Assembly (NCBI RefSeq): GCF_038396675.1
Contig: NC_088921.1
Span: 12,211,001-12,275,000 of the forward strand
Source: Hydra vulgaris
Lineage: Eukaryota > Cnidaria > Hydrozoa > Anthoathecata > Hydridae
Reading direction: 5' to 3'
DNA length: 64,000 bases
Under the pieces are notes generated by a model. That model was not told where the DNA came from and did not search any database. It saw nothing but the letters and a program-made list of their open reading frames with translations. This document shows, piece after piece, positions 783 to 13,552 of this stretch; positions within the stretch are counted from its first letter, which is position 1; each line of letters starts with the position of its first letter. The position numbers were made by a program, and so were the translations under genes.

Positions 783-2820
783 TTAAAAGAGATATTTTAA
801 CTCAAGATCATTTTGCAATAAAAGACTCTTAGATTCTTTCCTGAATTGTTCCAAAGAGATGTTTTGAATATTATTTTTTTTTGTAATAAATTTTAAAAAA
901 TGTTTCCACAGAAACGGTCCACGATATTGATTTTGGTAAGAACCTAGTTTTAAATTAGTTTTTGGTACAATGAAGTTGTTAATTGAAAATTTAGTAGGAT
1001 ACTTGTGCGAGATTTCACTAAAGTAAGACTGAAACACAATAGGAGAAAGCCCACGTTTTATTTTAAACATGAATTGTAGAACCTGGTGTATATTAAGTTT
1101 ATAGATACTTAGGGCACCAAGCTTCCTTAAAAGAGGTTCGCAATGAAAAGTTCTGTGTGCACCAAATACAATCCTGCATGCGTGTTTTTGCTTACTATAA
1201 AGTTTTTTTAATTTACTATAATTAGTACTACCCCATACAATATTACAGTACGAGATAAAACTATGAATAAATGAAAAGTATATTTTTTTTAAGGAAGCAG
1301 TGTTAAGATATGGTTTAGTTTTATATAATATGGAAATATTTATTGAGATTTTATTTTCTATGTATTTTATATGTGGTTTCCATGACAAATTTTCATCTAG
1401 TATTACTCCTAAAAAATTAACGATTGGTTCCCTTTTGATAAATGTTTTATTGATTATAAGATTAGGTAATTTTAGAGGAACATCATCACCTTTACTAGGT
1501 TTGGAGAATAAGATAAATTTAGTTTTTTCTACATTTAACGAAAGCCTATTACTTGTAAACCACTCGTTTATTTTTAATAGTTCTTCATTAAATATATTAA
1601 AGAGAACTTTTATGTTTTTGTCGGAATAAAAAAGATTGCAGTCGTCTGCAAACAATATAACATTTAAAATATTTGATGCTAAGTACAAATCATTTATATA
1701 CAATAAAAATAATAATGGTCCTAAGATTGAACCTTGGGGCACACCACAAGTTATGTGTTTTTCTTTTTCAGTTTTTTTATAAATAATACATTGTGACCTG
1801 TTTGCTAGATAATCTTCAAACCAAAGTAAGTTTTTATTTCTTACTCCATAGAGTTCCAGTTTTTTTATAAGTATCTTATGGTTAACAGTGTCAAAGGCTT
1901 TTGACAGATCAATAAAAACTCCTAAGGTAAAATAGTCATTATTGAATGCATTTGTTACATGATTAATCAGTTCAATTACCGCTTGGTTAGTTGAATTATC
2001 TTTTTTAAACCCAAATTGTTTACTGTACAGCAAACTGTTTGACATCAAATAGTTATAAAGTCTGTTATACATAATTCTTTCCAATAATTTTGAGAAGCAA
2101 GGTAAGACGGAAATTGGTCTGTAGTTGGAAATATTAGTTTCGTCACCAGATTTAAAAATTGGAGTGATTACGGCAACTTTAAGTTTTATTGGCACAACAC
2201 CTAGTTTTAATGAAAGATTAAAAATATGAAATAATGACGGTTCAATGATATCGTAAACTGATTTAACAACATTTACACTAATTTTGTCGAAGCCCGGCAC
2301 TTTTATTACTTTTAAGACTATTAAAAGCATTTCTTAACTCGCTTAGATTTAAATTAGATTCTTCCATAATAGTATTACACGGTTTGATATAGGATTCAAA
2401 CTCTATGGTACTTGGTGGAATTTTACTCGCCAAGTTTGGCCCTACTTCAAGAAAAAATGAGTTAAGTTTTTCAGCTATTTTTTTTATCGTAAGTCATTTC
2501 CCCGTCAATTAAAAGCTTTTGGGGGAGATTATTTGTTACACATTTATTTTTACCAATTACTTGTTTAATTATATTCCACGTTTTTTTAGTGTCGCCGTTG
2601 GTTTTTTCTAGCAACTTTGCATAATAATTTTTTTTAGAATGTTTTTTTGTTTTTTCAAATAAGTTTTTATATTTTTTGTAGTTTATTTCATTTTTATATG
2701 TTTTATGCCTTAAATATTTAACATATAGTTTTTGTTTTTTTTTAGACGATTTTATTAGACCCTTGGTCATCCAGGGATTTAGAAGAGACTTGCATTTTAT
2801 AACTATTTTTTTAACAGGAA
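783..2820 (-). pseudogene. LINE-A ORF2, reverse transcriptase part
   Basis: Carboxy two thirds of ORF2, the protein that nicks target DNA and copies the RNA there. The minus-strand order is a basic linker starting at 2820 (NPWMTKGLIKSSKK), then RT blocks [61 protein letters not shown] and catalytic FADD in LFADDCNLF, then the thumb/C-terminal region (SYCNIVWGSTNYSK) ending at 783. Two single-base insertions break the frame: in the A-run near 2480 and near 2305 in SNKSAG/FDK. The part upstream of 2820 continues in frame with the piece ending at 10465 once the nested transposon is removed. All catalytic motifs are intact. Confidence 0.9.
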
Positions 2821-2850
2821 CCCTATGCGCGCATCACTAGTGATTTAGTA
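2821..2850 (+). repeat. Left terminal inverted repeat
   Basis: Starts CCCTATGCGCGCATCACT, identical to the inverted right end, and runs into the palindrome ATCACTAGTGAT (2833-2844). Two mismatches over about 30 bp against the right end. Confidence 0.9.
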
Positions 2851-3000
2851 CTGCTCAACGGTGATTTAGTGGTGATCACTAGTGATCGCCACTCAATCAC
2901 CGCTCTATCGCCACTAATACATTACTTATTTATACGCAAAAATCAAATACCCAAAATAATTTTATATTAGTGGTGATTCAATGCTTATTAAGTAGTGACT
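2851..3000. repeat. Left subterminal repeat region
   Basis: Scattered copies of GTGATTTAGT, GTGATCACTAGTGATC (palindrome again at 2875-2886), CGCCACT and AGTGGTGATT. These are the same words that make up the long arrays at the right end and are probably transposase binding sites, as in CACTA-type elements. Confidence 0.65.
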
Positions 3001-3053
3001 GTTTAGTAATATATCAAAATGCGAAAATAAGTTATAACTCGTCTCAAAAAAAA

Positions 3054-4991
3054 ATGGCAGGTAATAAGCGCAAGCACTACATGAAAAGCTACATGAGAAA
3101 TTATAGAAGTTTTAAAAAGTTGTTTAATGAAGAAGAAGAAGGTAAAGAAGAAGAAGAAGGTAAAGAAGACGGAGAAGAAGAAGGTAAAGAAGACGACGAC
3201 GAAGAAGAAGCTAATGAAAACGACGACAAAGAGGAAGAAGGTAAAAAAGACGACAACGAAGATAAAGAAGACGAAGAACATAAAGAAGACGAAGAACATA
3301 AAGAAGATGATGAAGAAGTAGGATATAACGAAAAAAATGGTAATACAGAAAGTGAGGTTTCTCAATCTGTCAAGACTCGAAATTTTCTTCATAAATGGGC
3401 TGTTGAAAATAATATCAAGTCTAAACCGTTAAACGAGCTTTTGACACATTTGAACTCATTCATAAAAGACATTCCTAAAAGTGGAACATTTTTAAAAAAT
3501 ACTTTAAGAAGTGTGGATGTTGAAAACGTTGCTGGAGGTGGTTTTGTTTATATTTCTTTAAAAATTGCACTTGGCAATTATGTAAAATGCTTCAGAAAGC
3601 CAGCAGAGTTTGATCTTATTATAAATGTTGATGGTACTCGAATATACAATAGTAAAAAAAAACAAATGTGGCCTTTACTGTGTACTATAAATCAACAAGG
3701 TCCATATGCAATTGCTTTATGGTATGGTGAAGGAAAACCTACAGTTCTTGGAGAATACCTCAAAAAGTTTGTAGCAGAGTTAAAATTCTATTTTATAAAT
3801 GGGTATGAAGGTTTAAAGGTAATAATTAAGGCATTTGTATGTGATGCACCAGCCAGAGCATTTTTAAAATGTATAAAAAGTCATAGTGGATATGACAGTT
3901 GTGAAAGATGTGAAGAACATGGTGAGTATCATAAAGGTATAAGATTGTTAGGTACTAAATCTTTAATACGAGATGATAAAAAGTTTAAAGAAAAATTTTA
4001 TTCAGAGCATCAGATTGGTAAATCACCATTATCCAAACTTGAAATTCCAATGGTGACTGGATTTGTACTTGATTACATGCATTTAGTTTGTCTAGGGGTT
4101 ACAAAGAAACTTATGAAGAGTTATATTAACAATATAGGTTCCTCTGTACACAGCAAAATTTCTTCGCAGTTGCTCGAAATAAGAAAATGCACACCAACAG
4201 ACTTTCAAGGTTGGCCTAGAAGTTTGGATGAATTTTCTGATTTTAAAGCAACTGAATTTTGCTTTTTTTTATTATATGCAGGAATTGTAGTTATGAAAGG
4301 TAAAATATCGCATGATGAGTATAAACTTTTATTGGCTTTATCAGCTGCAATGCACATTCTTTTATCTGAGACAATGATTAAAGATAACTCAATGGTTTCT
4401 TACTGTAAGAGTTTGTTAGAATGGTTTACAACAGAATCAATTGTTTTTTATGGACCATTGTTTGCATCTTATAATGTGCACAGTATTATTCATTTAGCTG
4501 ATGATGTAATAAATCACAAAGTATCATTGAATAAAATATCTGCATTTCCTTTTGAAAATTACCTTGGAAAAATTAAAAGAAAAATTCATAGTGGTACATA
4601 TACAGTTGCTCAAGTTGTTAAAAGGCTTGATGAACAAAGTAAAGTAATACATCTATTACCAACAAAAAAATCAGTGATCTTTAATACAAATTTTAGAAAT
4701 AGAGTTTATTATATCAGCAAAATAGGTTTTGTAGTTGTTGAGAAAGTTGTAGAAAACAAATATTTTTGTAAATTGTTTAAATTTTCGAAACTAACAAATT
4801 TTTTTGAAAGTCCTTTACCAAGTTCACTCATTCATATTTACCACTTAACAACTTTGTCAAATTGCAAGGAAATTGAATTGGAACAGAATGCATTGCTACA
4901 CAAAGCCATCATGATGCCTTGTGATAAAGGAGGCTATGTACTTATTCCTCTTCTCCACTGTGACCTTAATGACAATTTTACAAATCTATAA
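3054..4991 (+). CDS. CACTA/CMC-like transposase
   Basis: Single open frame, 646 residues from the ATG at 3054. The frame is open upstream to 2970, but that stretch lies in subterminal repeats, and MAGNKRK starting a basic segment is the likelier start. Residues about 25-85 are a Glu/Lys/Asp-rich run, probably unstructured. The core follows: INVDGTRIYNSKKKQMWP (Asp at 3630-3632), then FVCDAPARAFLKC (Asp at 3843-3845) with a following CERC that may bind zinc, MVTGFVLDYMHLVCLG, WPRSLDEF, and FPFENYLGKIKR near the C terminus. These blocks are typical of animal proteins related to plant CACTA transposases (Transposase_21/DUF4218 style). It would cut and move the surrounding element. No stop or frameshift is present. 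Which acids form the DDE triad cannot be fixed by eye. Confidence 0.85.
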   Translation: MAGNKRKHYMKSYMRNYRSFKKLFNEEEEGKEEEEGKEDGEEEGKEDDDEEEANENDDKEEEGKKDDNEDKEDEEHKEDEEHKEDDEEVGYNEKNGNTESEVSQSVKTRNFLHKWAVENNIKSKPLNELLTHLNSFIKDIPKSGTFLKNTLRSVDVENVAGGGFVYISLKIALGNYVKCFRKPAEFDLIINVDGTRIYNSKKKQMWPLLCTINQQGPYAIALWYGEGKPTVLGEYLKKFVAELKFYFINGYEGLKVIIKAFVCDAPARAFLKCIKSHSGYDSCERCEEHGEYHKGIRLLGTKSLIRDDKKFKEKFYSEHQIGKSPLSKLEIPMVTGFVLDYMHLVCLGVTKKLMKSYINNIGSSVHSKISSQLLEIRKCTPTDFQGWPRSLDEFSDFKATEFCFFLLYAGIVVMKGKISHDEYKLLLALSAAMHILLSETMIKDNSMVSYCKSLLEWFTTESIVFYGPLFASYNVHSIIHLADDVINHKVSLNKISAFPFENYLGKIKRKIHSGTYTVAQVVKRLDEQSKVIHLLPTKKSVIFNTNFRNRVYYISKIGFVVVEKVVENKYFCKLFKFSKLTNFFESPLPSSLIHIYHLTTLSNCKEIELEQNALLHKAIMMPCDKGGYVLIPLLHCDLNDNFTNL

Positions 4992-4994
4992 TTT

Positions 4995-4996
<2 letters not shown>

Positions 4997-5060
<64 letters not shown>
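4997..5060. repeat. (TA)n microsatellite
   Basis: About 30 TA units directly after the transposase stop and next to the 3' end of a minus-strand LINE fragment. It may have grown from the LINE tail. Confidence 0.95.
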
Positions 5061-5083
5061 CTTTTACACATTTGGTTTTACTA

Positions 5084-5620
5084 TTAGAATTGGAAGTTAC
5101 TGGATCAGAGAAAGGATGAAGTTTATAGAGCAAGATAATGATTGAAAGATGAATTAAAAAATTGCAAATTATATGAATCAGGAAAGCAAGATGAAGGTAC
5201 CGAATTCCAAAGAACTAATATTTGAGAAAAAAAACTAGGCAAATAAAAGTTTTTGGAGCACTTAGGAATAGTCACAGAAAAAGGATGAGACTTAATTAAA
5301 TGACGAGTAACACGAGAATGAATTTTAGTAGATGGCACAAGAGACACTAGTTCTTTAGAGCAGTGCCTGTTATAGTATTTGTAGAAAAAAGAAAGAAAAG
5401 CAACATTAAGACGATGAGATAAAACTATGTTTACAATGCATTTTTGCACCTTGTCTAAAAGAGAAAGGGCATCATTGAAAAATCCGCCCCAGGTAAGGCA
5501 ACAGTATTCCATACAAAGACGAATTTGAGATTTATAGAGATAAAGAATAGAATCTGGAGTATGAAAATGTCGAGCACGATAAAGAGACACAACCTAAGCA
5601 AATGCTAATTTTGCAACAGA
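5084..5620 (-). pseudogene. LINE-D family 3' fragment (RT C terminus)
   Basis: Minus-strand open stretch of about 155 residues matching the last part of a LINE ORF2: SQIRLCMEYCCLTWGG, LLDKVQKCIVNIV, FYKYYNRHCSKEL, TRHLIKSHPFSV, LWNSVPSSCFPDSYNLQFF. The same order is found in the LINE-D remnant at 59430-61480 (ECSKNIDLSSF, LWNSLASSCFPDSYYLQLF), and non-coding flanks match too, so both are copies of one family. It is 5'-truncated and sits between the two genes of the CACTA-like element, so it inserted after that element formed. Confidence 0.8.
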
Positions 5621-5751
5621 TTTGATATATGGTTTACAAATTAATTTTATAATGATTTTACTCTTAAATTTTTATACAATGTAGCATAACAAAATGAATG
5701 AAATTGTTTAGTTTTATGATAACTGTTGTTTAAAATGACTTTCTCATTTTA

Positions 5752-5754
<3 letters not shown>

Positions 5755-5837
<83 letters not shown>

Positions 5838-5838
5838 C
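5755..5838. repeat. (AT)n microsatellite
   Basis: Long AT dinucleotide run between the two genes of the CACTA-like element. Confidence 0.95.
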
Positions 5839-5968
5839 TCTACTATACTCAATACATATGTTAGATCGCAATTTCCTAATAACATTTTTGCTCTCTTAAG
5901 GTAAAAACAAAGAATAATGAAAGAAAAGATAGCTGCCCCTGCTTAACCCTCAGTCGATGTAGTAGCAC

Positions 5969-5973
<5 letters not shown>

Positions 5974-6038
<65 letters not shown>
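5974..6038. repeat. (TA)n microsatellite
   Basis: TA dinucleotide run upstream of the DUF4806-like gene. Confidence 0.95.
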
Positions 6039-6041
<3 letters not shown>

Positions 6042-6177
6042 TATAATTTACTTATCGCCTCATAATATTATTTTCGTTTTACTTTTCTTATGATGAAAAT
6101 GTTTAATTATATTATTCACTCTAATTTTTTTATTGATACCTGTTTAATACTGTCCCTAACTATGTATATATAAATAG

Positions 6178-6243
6178 TTATTAATAATAATAATAATAAT
6201 AATAATAACAACAATAATAATAATACTAATAATAACAACAATA
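6178..6243. repeat. (TAA)n microsatellite
   Basis: TAA/AAC trinucleotide run about 120 bp before the start codon of the DUF4806-like gene. Confidence 0.9.
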
Positions 6244-6363
6244 ATATCAATGATAATATTCGTTTATTTTTATTATTGTAATTACTTTTTTATTATTGTT
6301 CTAATTGTTAATTATTTATTACTTAATTATTTATTTCAGCTTTTATTTTTAAATTAAAAAAAA

Positions 6364-7624
6364 ATGGATAAGTTTGTTAAAGTGAAATGGCTCGAACCTC
6401 CACATTCCATTGAATATGGAACAATTCCTTCAAATTGGATAGAAGAAAGAAATGATAGCTTTTGGGTGTGCTGGCCTCCAGTTCCTAATGTGAAGCCATT
6501 AATTTTAAACAGGCAACTACCAAAAAAAGACTGGTTCAGGTTTATTTTGTTAAAGAAATATGGAAGTGGAAGTAAGTTTAAGTCATATTCAACTTTTATG
6601 AAACAATTATCTATATTTTATAGTACTTGCATTTTCATGTTTTTATTTTTTATTTTAGGCAGCTTTTCTGAATGTGAGCTTGTCCCCTCAGCCATTGATA
6701 CGAACGAAGATACAGATGATGATAATCTTTCCAAGCGAAAATGTCGAACGGTTTTACCATATTTTATGAGTGATTCTGATGATTTGGGTTATTTTAAGTT
6801 ATTTACTTTATTTTGTTTGGTATTATACTAAAAAATTTTTTGCAAAAATTTGTGAACAGGTGTATTGTTTATTATAGATAATGATATTGTTTCCAATCAA
6901 CCAAAAAGGCCTAAATTAGTTTGCAGCAGTGATGAAGAGCAAGAGACAATAATCAACAAGTTTCCATTACTTCCACCATCACTACAAAAATGTTCTTTAT
7001 TTTATCTATAATTAAAAATTTATATTTATAAACTTTTTTTTTATTGTGTTTTCAATACTGGTGTATACATTTTTCTTCTTTGAGACTAATTTTTTACACT
7101 TTGGTATAGCAAATAATATTTAGTAAGATCAATGAGTATTATTTGTTATGCTAACAAAGATCTTTGTAAGACTTTACAATATACATCTAAAGTATATCAG
7201 ATATCTTTTAAGAAGTTTATTTTTGCAGATATTTTAAAGTGTAGTTTTCTATAATTAAATTTAAGGTTTTTTTTTTTTAAGTGCCTTCAAATCTGAATTT
7301 GATTACTAAAAAGAGGCAAAGAATTGATTTGGAGATTGATCCAGAATCTCAAACTAAAGTACCATCTTCTCAATCTTATCTCCTGCAGCATAACACAAGT
7401 AATAGTACAGTTTTTATTCTTTATATATGTTGGATATTAAATTCTTATAAAATTTGCGTATATAAATAAACAAAGTTTTTTATTGCAGGTTGCAGCAGTA
7501 AAACTTTGGATGACATAGATAGTACACCCACTGTATCACAAGATGGTATAGTTGAACTTTAAATTTAAATTTTTATGCTTTCATACAAAACAATTAAATA
7601 AACTAATAACTCGATTTCTTGGTA

Positions 7625-7721
<97 letters not shown>

Positions 7722-9141
7722 AACTATACTAATAAATATATGTACATATATACTAATAATTAGATTTTAAGGTATTTAAATAGGAATTTTCTTGGTACAA
7801 ACATTTTGACACTTAATTTTTCATAATGCTCTGGGACATTTTTATTTTATATATAATATAACATCTGATATTATATTATATATAAAATAAAAATGTCCCA
7901 ACCAGAGCATTATGAAAGATCCAGTGTCAAAATGTATCTTTTTGTAACTTAAAATTTCTTTATTTTTAGTTTTCCAGAAAAATGTGATGAAAATTTTAAA
8001 AAATTTAAAAAAAGATTTATCTAATATTAAGCAAACCCAAAAAGATCTTATAGAAAAGTTTTCAGTTTTGCAGCATACAGGGGTAGATAATGTTAATACG
8101 TTTGTCTTAATTACTATTGACAATGTTGAGGATTTGGGGAAGTTAGAAAGTAAATTAGAAGACAAAAGTATATATTTGCAGCTGGTATGTTCACTAGTAT
8201 ATTTTAGCAATTTTGTTATTATTTGTAACACATAATTTATAACACTGTATTAGTCAGTTAAAAATCTGGTTCGAGCTAAAGATATTTTTTCAAATTTCAA
8301 ATCCATACAATGTTAATTAGTAATATCGTATTATATTGCTGTTAGTTTGTTACAGGTAGGTAATGTTCACTGTTTTTTTTTGTTGCAGTAATATTTAACC
8401 AAATAGTGAAAAGTAAGCAGCGATAGATGCAGGAATTCACAGTAGAGGTGTGGAATGAGTTTAAACTTATTCTAAAGATCAAAATCTTGAATAAAAATTC
8501 ATGAAAATCTAATAAAAAATATTATTGTAAATGCCTTTTACATCTCAAGTCACCTATGTCTTATTTCCATAGCAATTTGATATAGTATTTTCAAGATTTT
8601 TGCTGGCTATACTGATGGTTTAAATATTCTGGCAGAGGGGGATGCATACCCCCTCCCCCTAGATTTTTTACTGGTTACTTTAATTTATCATGTTATTATA
8701 AATATTAAATTATTATTACAGGTGGCAGTTTTAGCTCGTGCTTGTGGCATCCACCCTAAAAAAAGTATCTATGAGGCAATGAATAAACTTTTAACTAAAG
8801 ATGTTGCTTCGAAATATAATATAACGGGGACTGCCAAGAAATGTAATTTTTGCACGGAATTCAAAAATATTTATTCAGCCATTATAGGTATATATACAAA
8901 GGAACAAGTTTACACATATTTTATTAAATGTGACTAAGTCACGTTTCAAATATACAAAGGTATTTCAATTTCATGTTTTAAAGTTCTGTATCTTTTTTAT
9001 TTAGAGGCAGTTAGTAGTCAGCATGCTGACACCAAAGATATTCAACTCCACAGTTTTATTGGAGAGTGGTTGCGACAAGCTGGTGTCTTGAATATTCGAA
9101 CTGAGAAGAAAAAAATTGAAAATCCAAATAAAACTTTATAA
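6364..9141 (+). CDS. Eight-exon DUF4806-like transposon companion protein
   Basis: Exons 6364-6571, 6659-6787, 6878-6991, 7282-7398, 7489-7545, 7970-8184, 8722-8887 and 9005-9141 all sit between plausible GT and AG sites. Their lengths sum to 1,143 bp and the phases agree at every junction, giving 380 codons with no stop. The donor of exon 3 is the weakest. The N terminus (VKWLEPPHSIEYGTIPSNWI, then FWVCWPP) looks like the opening module of DUF4806 proteins. The middle is polar with a KRKC and KRPK basic patch. The C-terminal domain over exons 6-8 has ITIDNVEDLGKLESKLED, LARACGIHPKKSIYEAMNK, YNITGTAKKCNF and SFIGEWLRQAGV, the pattern of DUF4806. Function is unknown; a DNA-binding or regulatory partner of the transposase is inference. 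Preserved splicing implies selection until recently. Confidence 0.8.
7629..7718. repeat. (TA)n microsatellite in intron
   Basis: Long TA run in the fifth intron of the DUF4806-like gene. Confidence 0.95.
7796..7936. mobile_element. Hairpin MITE in intron of the DUF4806-like gene
   Basis: About 140-bp inverted repeat. The left arm has ACATTTTGACACT, TCATAATGCTCT and GGGACATTTTTATTTTATA; the right arm has the complements in reverse order with small gaps. TA lies at both outer edges (7796-7797, 7935-7936), fitting a Tc1/mariner-type non-autonomous element. It lies wholly inside an intron and leaves the exons intact. Confidence 0.7.
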
Positions 9142-9373
9142 AAAAAAATTTGTTTTTCTTTTACTAATAAAAATATTTTTTAACTGCTGTTTAGTAACTT
9201 TATAAATTAACATATCATTTAACTTTTGTTATTTACATTCAATTTAAAAAACTGATTTGTGCCTTCTATTATTTTTTAATTTGTTTATGATTTATCATCA
9301 TACTCTAATAAAAAAATTTTGTTAAAATATTTCTTTCTAAATTTTATCAATGTTCAGTTTTCTTTTTTTTTAG

Positions 9374-9453
9374 ATGCAGTCAGGAGTCAGCATGAAAGTG
9401 TAAAAGATTATGATAACTAAATAATCAACTCTACAGTTTTAAAGGAGATAGTC
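9374..9453 (+). pseudogene. Duplicated relic of the DUF4806 terminal exon
   Basis: Follows a polypyrimidine tract and AG, like a real acceptor, then ATGCAGTCAGGAGTCAGCATG, which parallels the start of exon 8 (GCAGTTAGTAGTCAGCATG), and later CAACTCTACAGTTTTA against CAACTCCACAGTTTTA. It meets stops early (TAA at 9418). It is a decayed tandem copy of the last exon and its acceptor. Confidence 0.7.
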
Positions 9454-9739
9454 ACAATAAAACGTTATGAAAATATTTTTAATTATAGTTTATTTTTCAT
9501 TTTTATGTATTTGATCCTATTTTTTGTAAAACGTCACTCGTTTGTATTTCTTTATTATATATTTCTTTTGTATTATGTTTGTATTATTTCAGAAATAAAA
9601 TTTCAGAAGTCTAACTGTAGTTTTTTATTAAAAACAAATTAAGGATTTTGAATGATTATTTTTAAATATGTTAATTATCGCAATCCCTGCAAACACTGGA
9701 ATTTGACGTTAAATAAATAGTATTTTATCAATATTACTT

Positions 9740-9952
9740 AAATATACCATAAATGATATATAATAAGTACCTTATCACTATTAACGATATCTAAACTAAA
9801 TCACGAGTGCATTGGCGTTAAATCAACTGTAATCATCTTTACATATTTGCTAGTGATAAATTACCACTCAATTACGGTAATACAAAGTTTACAAAATCAC
9901 CGTGGAATAAGTACTTAATCAGCGCTTACGATTAGTATTGAATTACTACTAA
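9740..9952. repeat. Right subterminal region, irregular repeats
   Basis: Degenerate ATCACTAGTGAT-like words (CTAGTGATAAATTACCACTCAATTACGG, TAATCAGCGCTTACGATTAG) before the tidy arrays. No coding potential. Confidence 0.6.
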
Positions 9953-10087
9953 ATCAATAGTGTATCGGTGTTAAATCAATAGTGTATCGGTGTTAAATCA
10001 ATAGTGTATCGGTGTTAAATCAATAGTGTATCGGTGTTAAATCAATAGTGTATCGGTGTTAAATCAATAGTGTATCGGTGTTAAATC
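9953..10087 (+). repeat. 22-bp tandem array, 6 copies
   Basis: Unit AATCAATAGTGTATCGGTGT plus TA, repeated six times with no length change (GTATCGGTG at 9962, 9984, 10006, 10028, 10050, 10072). Near-identical units point to recent expansion inside the transposon end. Confidence 0.95.
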
Positions 10088-10116
10088 AGCGGTGATAATC
10101 ACTACTTATTCACTAG

Positions 10117-10374
10117 TAACAAATCACCACTCAATCACTAGTGATAAAAACTCACCACTCAATCACTAGTGATAAAAACTCACCACTCAATCACTAGTGA
10201 TAAAAACTCACCACTCAATCACTAGTGATAAAAACTCACCACTCAATCACTAGTGATAAAAACTCACCACTCAATCACTAGTGATAAAAACTCACCACTC
10301 AATCACTAGTGATAAAAACTCACCACTCAATCACTAGTGATAAAAACTCACCACTCAATCACTAGTGATAAAAA
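10117..10374 (+). repeat. 28-bp tandem array with palindrome core, 9 copies
   Basis: Each unit carries CACCACTCA, then the palindrome ATCACTAGTGAT, then AAAAACT. Cores start every 28 bp from 10136 to 10360. The same palindrome is in the left terminal repeat, so these are likely reiterated transposase binding sites. Confidence 0.95.
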
Positions 10375-10434
10375 GTTTACAAAATCAACGTTTAGTAAGT
10401 ACTTAATCACCACTTACAATAAGTATTGAATCAC

Positions 10435-10464
10435 TACTAAATCATCAGTGATGCGCGCATAGGG
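10435..10464 (-). repeat. Right terminal inverted repeat
   Basis: Ends AGTGATGCGCGCATAGGG, the exact complement of the first 18 bases at 2821. Confidence 0.9.
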
Positions 10465-11457
10465 AAATGCTATGTCATACTGTTTACAGAATTGTGTTAA
10501 AAATAGTTCATATGCATTATTTACTTCATGGGATTGTAAAATAAGATTCAAATCGAGATTTTCTGATAAAAGAGTTCGAAAATACAATAAGGAGTTTTCA
10601 TTGATCTGTCGCATTAAAATTGTAGAGTTCGACGGAGGATTAGTTTGGGTAATGTTATCAGTAAATAAGAATATTGGATAGTGATCTGTTAAATCAGCTT
10701 TGATTATGCCCGAACCTAAACGACAATTTTGAAAATTGTTAGTAACTATATTATCAAGTAATGAAGATGTAGTCTTAGTTATTCTCGTTGACTTATTTAT
10801 TGTTGGTCATAGATTATATTGGGTTAAAGTATCTAAAAAATATTGAACATTTTTATTTGAAGCATAATTAAGCAAGTTTAAGTTAAAATCACCAGCCAAG
10901 TAAACATGTTTCCGTGTTAAGCTAATTTTGGTTAAAAAACTGCTTAAATAAGTTTTAAATTTTTTTAAAATACCAGATGGTTGTCTATAAATAGAATTGA
11001 TTACAATGTTTTTGGTGGTTTTGTTTATGATTTCTATGCACAGCGACTCACAATCTGTTTCATTAACATTAAGATCATTACGTAAAATAAAGTTTATTGA
11101 TTTGTGAACAAAAATACTAACACCACCACCAGCGTAGTTAAAACGCGGTTGGTGAACTGATACGTAATTACTTAATTCAAGATTTGAATTTTTTCCATTG
11201 GTTTTAAGCCAAGTTTCCGTAATACAAATTATTTGAAATTCGTGGTGCAGTTGATGCAATAAGAGTCTAAGATTTTCAAAATTTTTGTTAATACTTCGAA
11301 TGATTACATGTAATATAGAAAAGTTTTTTTTGTTCTGACAGAGATATTGAGTAGATTCAAAAATTGAATAATACTCGCTTTCTAAATTTTTTCCATTAAA
11401 ATAGTTATTATCACTAGCATTCTCATCACTAAAATTAAATGAAAGATTGACCTCCAT
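10465..11457 (-). pseudogene. LINE-A ORF2, endonuclease part
   Basis: Amino third of ORF2, an AP-type endonuclease that nicks target DNA to prime reverse transcription. Starts MEVNLSFNFSDENASDNN at 11457, 104 bp after ORF1. Visible motifs are ITETWLKT (catalytic Glu), GGGVSIFVHK, NSIYRQPSG, AGDFNLNLL and LTDHYPIFL (the SDH-type motif). One in-frame TGA lies at 10807-10809; beyond it the frame stays open to 10465, where the CACTA-like transposon inserted. The reading resumes at 2820. Confidence 0.88.
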
Positions 11458-12454: not shown

Positions 12455-13552
12455 GCAGTCAAATTGTCAAAGCGCCTTGACCAATACTTGTGCAACAATT
12501 ACATTTTGCAATGTGCAGTTCGAGACTCATTTGGAATGACTGCTGAAATGGATGATGCGTTGCAAACATGCAAAGATTTGGCTTCTTTAACTCACCAGTC
12601 AACAGTTGCAGCTGAGTTGCTTGAATCAGAATCAGACGCTCAAGGAATCAATTTTAGACAGTTACGCCAATCTGTTGACACAAGATGGAATAGTGAACTG
12701 GATTGCATGGCTTCTGTCCTACATCTAAAGAGTGCAATTATCAGCTTATGTGCAAATGAAGATATTTTTTCTTCAAAGACCATCAGTGCATCACAGTGGA
12801 AATCAATCGAGGGAGCAGTAGAAATTTTGGCACCACTTAAAGAAGCTTCAGAAACGTAGTCGGCTGAGTCTATTCCAACAATTAACACTGTCACCGATTC
12901 TCTTTATTTAATCCATGACAAAATTGATCAATTTATTGAGACGGATGGAAAAAATGGCTACGGGGTCTTGTATGCAAAAAACTTGAAAAGCTGCATTGAG
13001 AAAAGATTTCCTCTTTGTCACACTGGAAACTTATTAAGTGCTGCAGCAAACTACTTAAATCCTGCTTTAAAGGAACTTCACTTGAAGCTCTTCAAAAAAT
13101 TTCAAACAACAAAAGAATGGTTAGCTTCACAGGTTAAGGATAATGTTGAGTGCTGACCTGTTGCCAGAGTCCTTTCAGCAGATTTGTCCCCTAATTCAAA
13201 ACTGAAGCGCAAGTTAAACGTCAGACTTGAAACACAAGAGCCAACATCTGAACTGAATCCTATTTTGAGCAAAATGTGCCAGTATGAATATCTCCCTGAT
13301 GCCAAAAAAGACTTTCCGATTCTTGATTGGTGGAAATTGCATTCAAATACATTGCCAGAACTTTCTTCATTAGCTAGACAAATTTTAGCTATTCCAGCAA
13401 GTTCAACTAAATCAGAGAGAGTTTTTAGCTCAGGTGGAAATGTCGTCCGATCATCCAGACACAACTTACACCCAGAAAAAGTAGAACAAATCATCTTAAT
13501 CAGAGAAAACATTGTCTTGTTGGAAAAGTTTGGCAAAAAAATTCTGAATTAA
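12455..13552 (+). pseudogene. hAT-A transposase, 3' part
   Basis: Resumes the hAT-A frame at GCA GTC AAA (AVKLSKRLDQYL). Seen in order: SVDTRWNSELDCMASVL, a typical hAT block; the long helical insertion region; and the C-terminal dimerisation (hATC) domain from WWKLHSNTLPELSSLARQ through AIPASSTKSERVFSSGG and LHPEKVEQIILI. In-frame stops lie at 12857-12859 (TAG) and 13154-13156 (TGA); the natural stop is 13550-13552. Frame is otherwise kept, so decay is by point mutation. Together with 1-441 it forms one gene whose true start is left of the window. Confidence 0.9.

Follow-up and report, generated by a model that had tools for sequence, protein, structure and literature searches.

In the genome of Hydra vulgaris, positions 2821-10464 of a 64,000-nucleotide stretch (C2:12211001-12275000; hereafter, the window) are occupied by an apparently intact DNA transposon of 7,644 bp. 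The element carries a transposase gene (gene 1) and, downstream on the same strand, a companion gene of eight exons (gene 2); their positions and those of the other features are given in Table 1. The original prediction, made from the letters of the window, had described an intact-looking, two-gene CACTA-like element with a conserved spliced companion and perfect 18-bp termini, and both points were borne out. The likeness between the two ends runs on imperfectly for about 30 bp beyond the inverted repeats. We scanned one genome (911.5 Mb in 15 contigs) for the terminal 18-mer CCCTATGCGCGCATCACT by exact search and obtained 25 occurrences, versus 0 for a reversed-pattern control. A search for copies with the same ends and both genes had been proposed as a check, and this one gave access to the copies.

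The length of the target duplication was read from 11 copies in which both ends were seen (at most 4 mismatches were allowed in the end pairs). In 8 of the 11, the flanks are an identical 2 bp: TA in six (one of these lies inside a TA repeat), AA in one and GA in one. The flanks of copy L016 are 3 bp (GTT), the only 3-bp case among the 11, and those of L018 and L025 do not match. Because eight copies have identical 2-bp flanks, which are mostly TA, the duplication is 2 bp and TA is preferred. For the window copy, AA or GAA had been proposed. AA stands; GAA was rejected, since the left flank ends in GGAA and the right flank starts with AAATG. The element is inserted into a long interspersed nuclear element (LINE) on the reverse strand, within which matches to RVT_1 (E 3.8e-36) and to an endonuclease domain (E 8.3e-8) were obtained. 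When the flanks were joined in silico with 2 bp removed, 229 codons were open across the junction; with 0 or 3 bp removed, the longest open stretch was 118-119 codons. Thus, as predicted, excision restores the host frame, which stays open only after removal of the element and one 2-bp AA copy. A fragment of a hAT-type transposase adjoins the host LINE (13184-13549, plus strand; hAT dimerisation domain, E 7.4e-22).

Gene 1 starts with the ATG at 3054 and ends with the stop codon at 4989-4991. The frame is uninterrupted, as had been stated, and encodes 645 residues; the earlier figure of 646 counts the stop codon. The predicted structure of the protein contains a fold like the catalytic core of RAG1. 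We propose D193, D264 and E501 as the putative catalytic triad. E401 was considered as the third residue and set aside: both glutamates are invariant in all 28 aligned transposases, and E501 was preferred because the part of the model that aligns with RAG1 stops near residue 537 and because plant CACTA transposases have a PFER motif at the corresponding place. The 28 aligned proteins are the window protein and 27 relatives, picked from 120 listed so as to include all five with a DUF4218 tag; the relatives came from the best 7978 candidates by shared words, so their numbers are lower bounds. The original prediction had named Transposase_21. The window protein does not match this family at E ≤ 1 or at E ≤ 10; matches at E ≤ 10 were obtained with 4 of the 28 aligned proteins (best 8.6e-5). 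DUF4218 was matched by 15 of the 28 at the same threshold (best 5.9e-7). One scan each of viral contigs and genome contigs with the transposase alignment found no relative. In the same genome, a related lineage at 36% identity has five stop-free transposase frames of 659-660 amino acids (C6:35215095, C1:60926538, C8:54692224, C8:54546087 and C9:36549337), and may have been active at a later time than the window family. For genes similar to this lineage, RefSeq contains several gene-2 isoforms.

The eight exons of gene 2, with GT-AG ends, join in phase into 380 residues followed by a stop codon, as predicted. In the sister copy L010, the same joins give the RefSeq protein LOC136078354 with zero differences, and three of its 380 residues are replaced in the window protein. 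A first model of 359 amino acids, in which exon 3 ended at 6928, was replaced by the present one (end at 6991) on the basis of the RefSeq protein. With the 359-residue model, the expected similarity to DUF4806 (PF16064) was confirmed (E 1.6e-8; 35.2 bits; cut-off 25), and the RefSeq protein P0121 gave E 1.7e-8. Among 17 related Hydra proteins, 13 likewise gave a DUF4806 match at E ≤ 1, and several of these matches lie under the cut-off. At E ≤ 10, DUF4806 was the only Pfam family matched by gene 2, and no kelch family was found. When the DUF4806 profile was run against the whole genome, there was one match only, presumably because introns split the domain. A search with the single protein gave 4 proteins, all from H. 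vulgaris; a profile search gave 33, and H. vulgaris is the organism of all 31 for which one is named. A companion gene from a genus other than Hydra did not turn up, contigs of other animals not being part of the search.

Table 1. Features of the two-gene element in the window
Feature	Position	Strand	Remarks
Target duplication AA, left copy	2819..2820		
Left terminal inverted repeat	2821..2838	+	CCCTATGCGCGCATCACT; perfect 18 bp
Left subterminal region	2821..3000		2 copies of the 12-bp palindrome ATCACTAGTGAT
Gene 1, transposase	3054..4991	+	645 aa, single uninterrupted frame; RAG1/Transib-like predicted fold
Non-element reading frame between the genes	5123..5590	-	No Pfam match at E ≤ 1
(TA)n tracts	5758..6040		A/B subfamily identity drops here; putative exchange point
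Gene 2 exon 1	6364..6571	+	N-terminal W..E..WPP..W domain
Gene 2 exon 2	6659..6787	+	
Gene 2 exon 3	6878..6991	+	Donor GTTCTT
Gene 2 exon 4	7282..7398	+	GT donor in the window copy
Gene 2 exon 5	7489..7545	+	
Gene 2 exon 6	7970..8184	+	DUF4806 begins
Gene 2 exon 7	8722..8887	+	DUF4806 core
Gene 2 exon 8	9005..9141	+	Holds the stop codon
Duplicate of last exon, shorter frame	9374..9420	+	DAVRSQHESVKDYDN, stop; candidate alternative terminal exon
Right subterminal region	9740..10446		9 copies of ATCACTAGTGAT; 28-bp and 22-bp tandem repeats
Right terminal inverted repeat	10447..10464	-	Perfect 18-bp match to left end
Target duplication AA, right copy	10465..10466		

To examine gene 2 by comparison, we aligned the window copy, which belongs to subfamily A, with six copies of a second subfamily (subfamily B). 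The gene-2 exons are 53-87% identical between them. Among the 84 splice sites in the six copies, 70 keep GT or AG, 5 are exon 4 donors with GC and the remaining 9 differ. The alignment of copies proposed earlier gave dS of about 0.65 and dN/dS of 0.24-0.29, with P values of 1.3e-16 or lower that are not independent, as the six copies are related to each other. Frame-broken codons and stops were left out of the counts. These ratios should be conservative because the B copies carry stops or frame breaks. Judged from these codon comparisons, gene 2 is under purifying selection between the subfamilies. Identity to the RefSeq protein, splice-site conservation, dN/dS and the DUF4806 match all support the model, and on the comparison of copies gene 2 is a real spliced gene. 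The exon 4 donor (7399-7400) is GT in the window, L009 and L010, and GC in L016, L023 and five of the six B copies counted; therefore, a GC-AG intron after exon 4 looks ancestral. A second, shorter last exon with its own acceptor is present in 4 of 11 copies scanned (the window, L009, L010 and L016, all subfamily A), and a similar piece was seen by eye in the B copy L025. It may be an alternative to exon 8, the use of which would remove the final helix.

We then asked how regularly the two genes occur together. Nineteen loci (the window and 18 others) were read; they cover 24 of the 25 end hits, C14:40444359 being left out. By tblastn, remains of both genes are present in 15 of the 19, so that the other copies do carry gene 2, an outcome on which the original prediction had staked its claim; both genes were not seen in L020, L023 (the left part of which is outside the stretch covered), L024 and L028. 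Neither gene contains a stop in the window or in L010, and L009 has one stop in gene 2. All loci except the window and L010 (17 of 19) have a stop, a frame break, a lost splice site or a loss in at least one gene. This damage raises the possibility that the window copy is itself dead and intact in looks only, and the copy does contain long (TA)n tracts, minisatellites that have expanded and an old insert that is foreign to the element. However, both frames are open in the window copy and in L010, and the transposases of the window, L009 and L010 are stop-free and 98-99% identical. We therefore regard a dead window copy as a possibility on the doubtful side, and one that is compatible with our explanation of the family, which may still be active.

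The pairing was then counted genome-wide. The best 68 of 5187 candidates were scored in the transposase search and 108 of 185 in the gene-2 search, so the counts are minima; 65 of 73 transposase matches (8 extra fragments of listed loci were omitted) and 38 of 137 gene-2 matches were used as representatives. At all 21 transposase loci listed with at least 57% identity, a gene-2 exon follows on the same strand at a distance of up to 20 kb: within 8 kb at 18 of them and at 10.7-18.2 kb at three (distance to the representative exon). We also read three distant loci, L030 (46% transposase identity), L031 (40%) and L032 (36%), and a spliced companion is present in all three. In each of them, the two C-terminal introns agree with those of the window in aligned position and in phase (0, then 1). 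DUF4806 was matched under the cut-off by the pieces of L030 (E 3.8e-4) and L032 (E 2.6e-3), and the RefSeq protein P0133, of which 250 of 257 residues were found in L031, gave E 4.3e-5 (24.2 bits; cut-off 25). hhalign related the window and L032 lineages with a probability of 96% (E 1.9e-9). The C-terminus of L030 gene 2 also matches DUF2682 (E 0.0059; 17.2 bits; cut-off 33.3). These results bear on the idea that the element took up gene 2 once from its host and carries it as a passenger, or that gene 2 is an unrelated neighbouring host gene. DUF4806 genes are reported in zebrafish (PMC11075544), which fits a host origin. Nevertheless, gene 2 lies inside the inverted repeats and recurs with the element at many loci, it is under purifying selection between subfamilies, and it accompanies transposases only 36-46% identical with intron sites in common. 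Thus, a passenger or neighbour is very improbable.

An unexpected finding from the alignments of copies is that the subfamilies are mosaic. In 200-bp windows, the B copies L017 and L025 are 82-100% identical to the window up to about 5837 and 43-82% beyond; the drop is at the (TA)n tracts. In L019 it comes earlier, after 5220. The control copy L010 is 97-100% identical to the window up to about 10020. In L13_14, L015, L017, L019 and L025, dS against the window is 0.066-0.077 for the transposase and 0.60-0.71 for gene 2. L022 differs in the same direction (0.13 versus 0.51), and in the older L021 the contrast is much weaker (0.44 versus 0.66). L018, L020, L023, L026 and L11_12 are not part of this comparison, which uses the 380-codon model. 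The simplest reading is that recombination or conversion placed one transposase half before two companion halves. The companions of near-identical transposases have 63 and 69% protein identity, broken stretches included; thus, near-identical transposases can live with companions about one-third different in protein. The minus-strand frame between the genes is probably an old LINE fragment or end. Copies of subfamily B share the sequence as far as 5344, and 5345-5619 is absent from most of them. Stretches similar to this frame occur elsewhere in some other loci (L012, L018 and L020).

The subterminal regions contain a perfect 12-bp palindrome. In the window copy, ATCACTAGTGAT occurs twice in the left 400 bp, nine times in the right 900 bp and nowhere else in the element. 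Among 16 other copies, several ends of which are outside the sequence covered, it occurs twice on the left in 10 and 0-1 times on the right in 15. Because 15 of 16 have so few on the right, the window copy probably gained its 28-bp and 22-bp arrays by recent expansion. From its position and symmetry, we guess that ATCACTAGTGAT is the motif that the gene 2 protein may bind. The right subterminal repeats diverge together with gene 2, and co-divergence of TNPA and its sites has been proposed for plants (PMC2613891).

Next, the element was compared with known systems. Its ends begin with CCCTATG rather than with the plant-type CACTA, and its duplication is 2 bp rather than the plant-type 3 bp. To this extent, the original prediction that it does not fit the standard CACTA description stands. 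However, animal TRC elements, which belong to the CACTA superfamily (SmTRC1 of Schistosoma mansoni and the TRCs of Tribolium and Aedes), have CCC ends and 2-bp duplications (DeMarco et al. 2006, PMC1636069). The Hydra element shares both features, with CCC at the start of both inverted repeats, and therefore is not outside the superfamily. A tnp2-related transposase and spliced proteins without a transposase domain are also described for TRCs (PMC1636069). There are two differences. In 2006, relatives of SmTRC-PrA and SmTRC-PrB could not be detected among other TRCs, and the SmTRC1 proteins arise by alternative splicing (PMC1636069), whereas the Hydra second protein is a DUF4806 protein found in several lineages of one genome and gene 2 has its own start codon. 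In layout, the element seems to work like En/Spm of maize. En/Spm and Tgmt* of soybean also combine a transposase with a spliced second protein and have repeated subterminal motifs near both ends (PMC2613891), but they have CACTA ends and a 3-bp duplication (PMC4158355, PMC2613891). TNPA and TNP1 share little similarity (PMC2613891). The Hydra partner also differs from the partners in the RAG1/RAG2, ProtoRAG (BbRAGL) and Transib group, because it matches DUF4806 and no kelch family, and so does not resemble the RAG2-like partner of ProtoRAG. The ends and duplication length of RAG and Transib likewise differ from those of the Hydra element. Neither TNPA nor TNP1 is known to be a DUF4806 protein.

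PMC11075544, citing Pan et al. 2023, describes DUF4806 as a subtype of BEN. When the Protein Data Bank was searched with two gene-2 profiles at E ≤ 10, the BEN domain of BEND6 was the only chain reached by either. We consider, with a probability of roughly 0.7, that this is a TRC-branch transposon that looks autonomous, in which gene 1 encodes a RAG1/Transib-like DDE transposase and gene 2 most likely encodes a BEN-type DNA-binding helper, the animal counterpart of TNPA. The transposase would cut at the CCC ends and insert the element with a 2-bp duplication, most often TA. The gene 2 protein would recognise the repeated palindromic subterminal motif and would load or regulate the transposase, as TNPA does for En/Spm; it may be needed for transposition. 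Alternatively, gene 2 may be a transposon-borne regulator, for example of transcription or silencing of the element, rather than part of the transposition complex. A role of BEN proteins as chromatin factors is discussed in the literature (PMC11075544), plant TNPA also has regulatory functions (PMC1636069, PMC2613891), and the occurrence of near-identical transposase halves with two diverged gene 2 halves suggests that strict pairing is unnecessary. Yet a purely regulatory gene would be easier to lose, and at least one exon is kept at all 21 close loci and gene 2 is present at all three distant loci read. Because plant TNPA does both, the regulator and helper readings overlap, and we consider a pure regulator unlikely.

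Several observations weigh against the proposal of a conserved BEN-type helper. The BEN link is marginal (E 0.055 and 0.018 with the two gene-2 profiles), and an AlphaFold model of gene 2 from a 4-sequence alignment had a pLDDT of 32. Outside the six B copies, dN/dS is less clear: 0.31 for L021, 0.40 for L022, 0.40 for L016 and 0.67 for L023, and 0.58-0.83 for L018, L020, L026 and L027, in which exon projection is poor. A gene-2 neighbour was detected at 3 of 26 listed loci of 41-56% transposase identity and at 0 of 18 below 41%. The query for these counts was the window-type gene 2, and the figures are lower bounds because L031 and L032 have companions which this query missed; L030 is already among the three. 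For 14 of the 38 representatives of gene 2, none of the listed transposases was assigned; some of the 14 are additional exons from loci that are paired, or known degraded copies (L021, L023 and L026), and others are unexplained. L030 gene 2 has a frame break before the DUF4806 part, the L031 gene-2 pieces do not match DUF4806, and hhalign between the window and L031 lineages was modest (probability 57%, E 1.1e-4). Neither CCC nor CA ends were found for L030-L032 within the stretches read. Finally, gene 2 could be a regulator that is dispensable for transposition.

In the paper on the Hydra viridissima genome, DUF4806 is listed among domains enriched in Hydra, with counts of 69 and 54 in two Hydra species versus 6, 0, 1, 0 and 0 in five other cnidarians (PMC7642931). 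Transposon-borne copies of gene 2 would explain this enrichment. The passages on DUF4806 that we consulted in the literature contain no link between this domain and a transposon. More speculatively, animal TRC-type CACTA elements may generally be two-component systems of a RAG1-like transposase and a BEN-type (DUF4806) partner, the halves being exchangeable modules, and the DUF4806/BEN expansions of Hydra, and perhaps some host BEN factors, may derive from the partner gene. If this tentative idea is true, a second type of partner, unrelated to the first, was taken on by a RAG-like enzyme. When the second protein of an animal CACTA-type element was described in 2006, no relatives of it could be detected (PMC1636069). 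For a protein of this kind, the Hydra element now supplies a domain, conservation of the gene structure, a measure of selective constraint and a candidate target on the DNA. Therefore, whether animal CACTA elements need a TNPA-like partner is directly testable, and the mosaic transposase and partner halves would provide a natural test of the specificity of the partnership.

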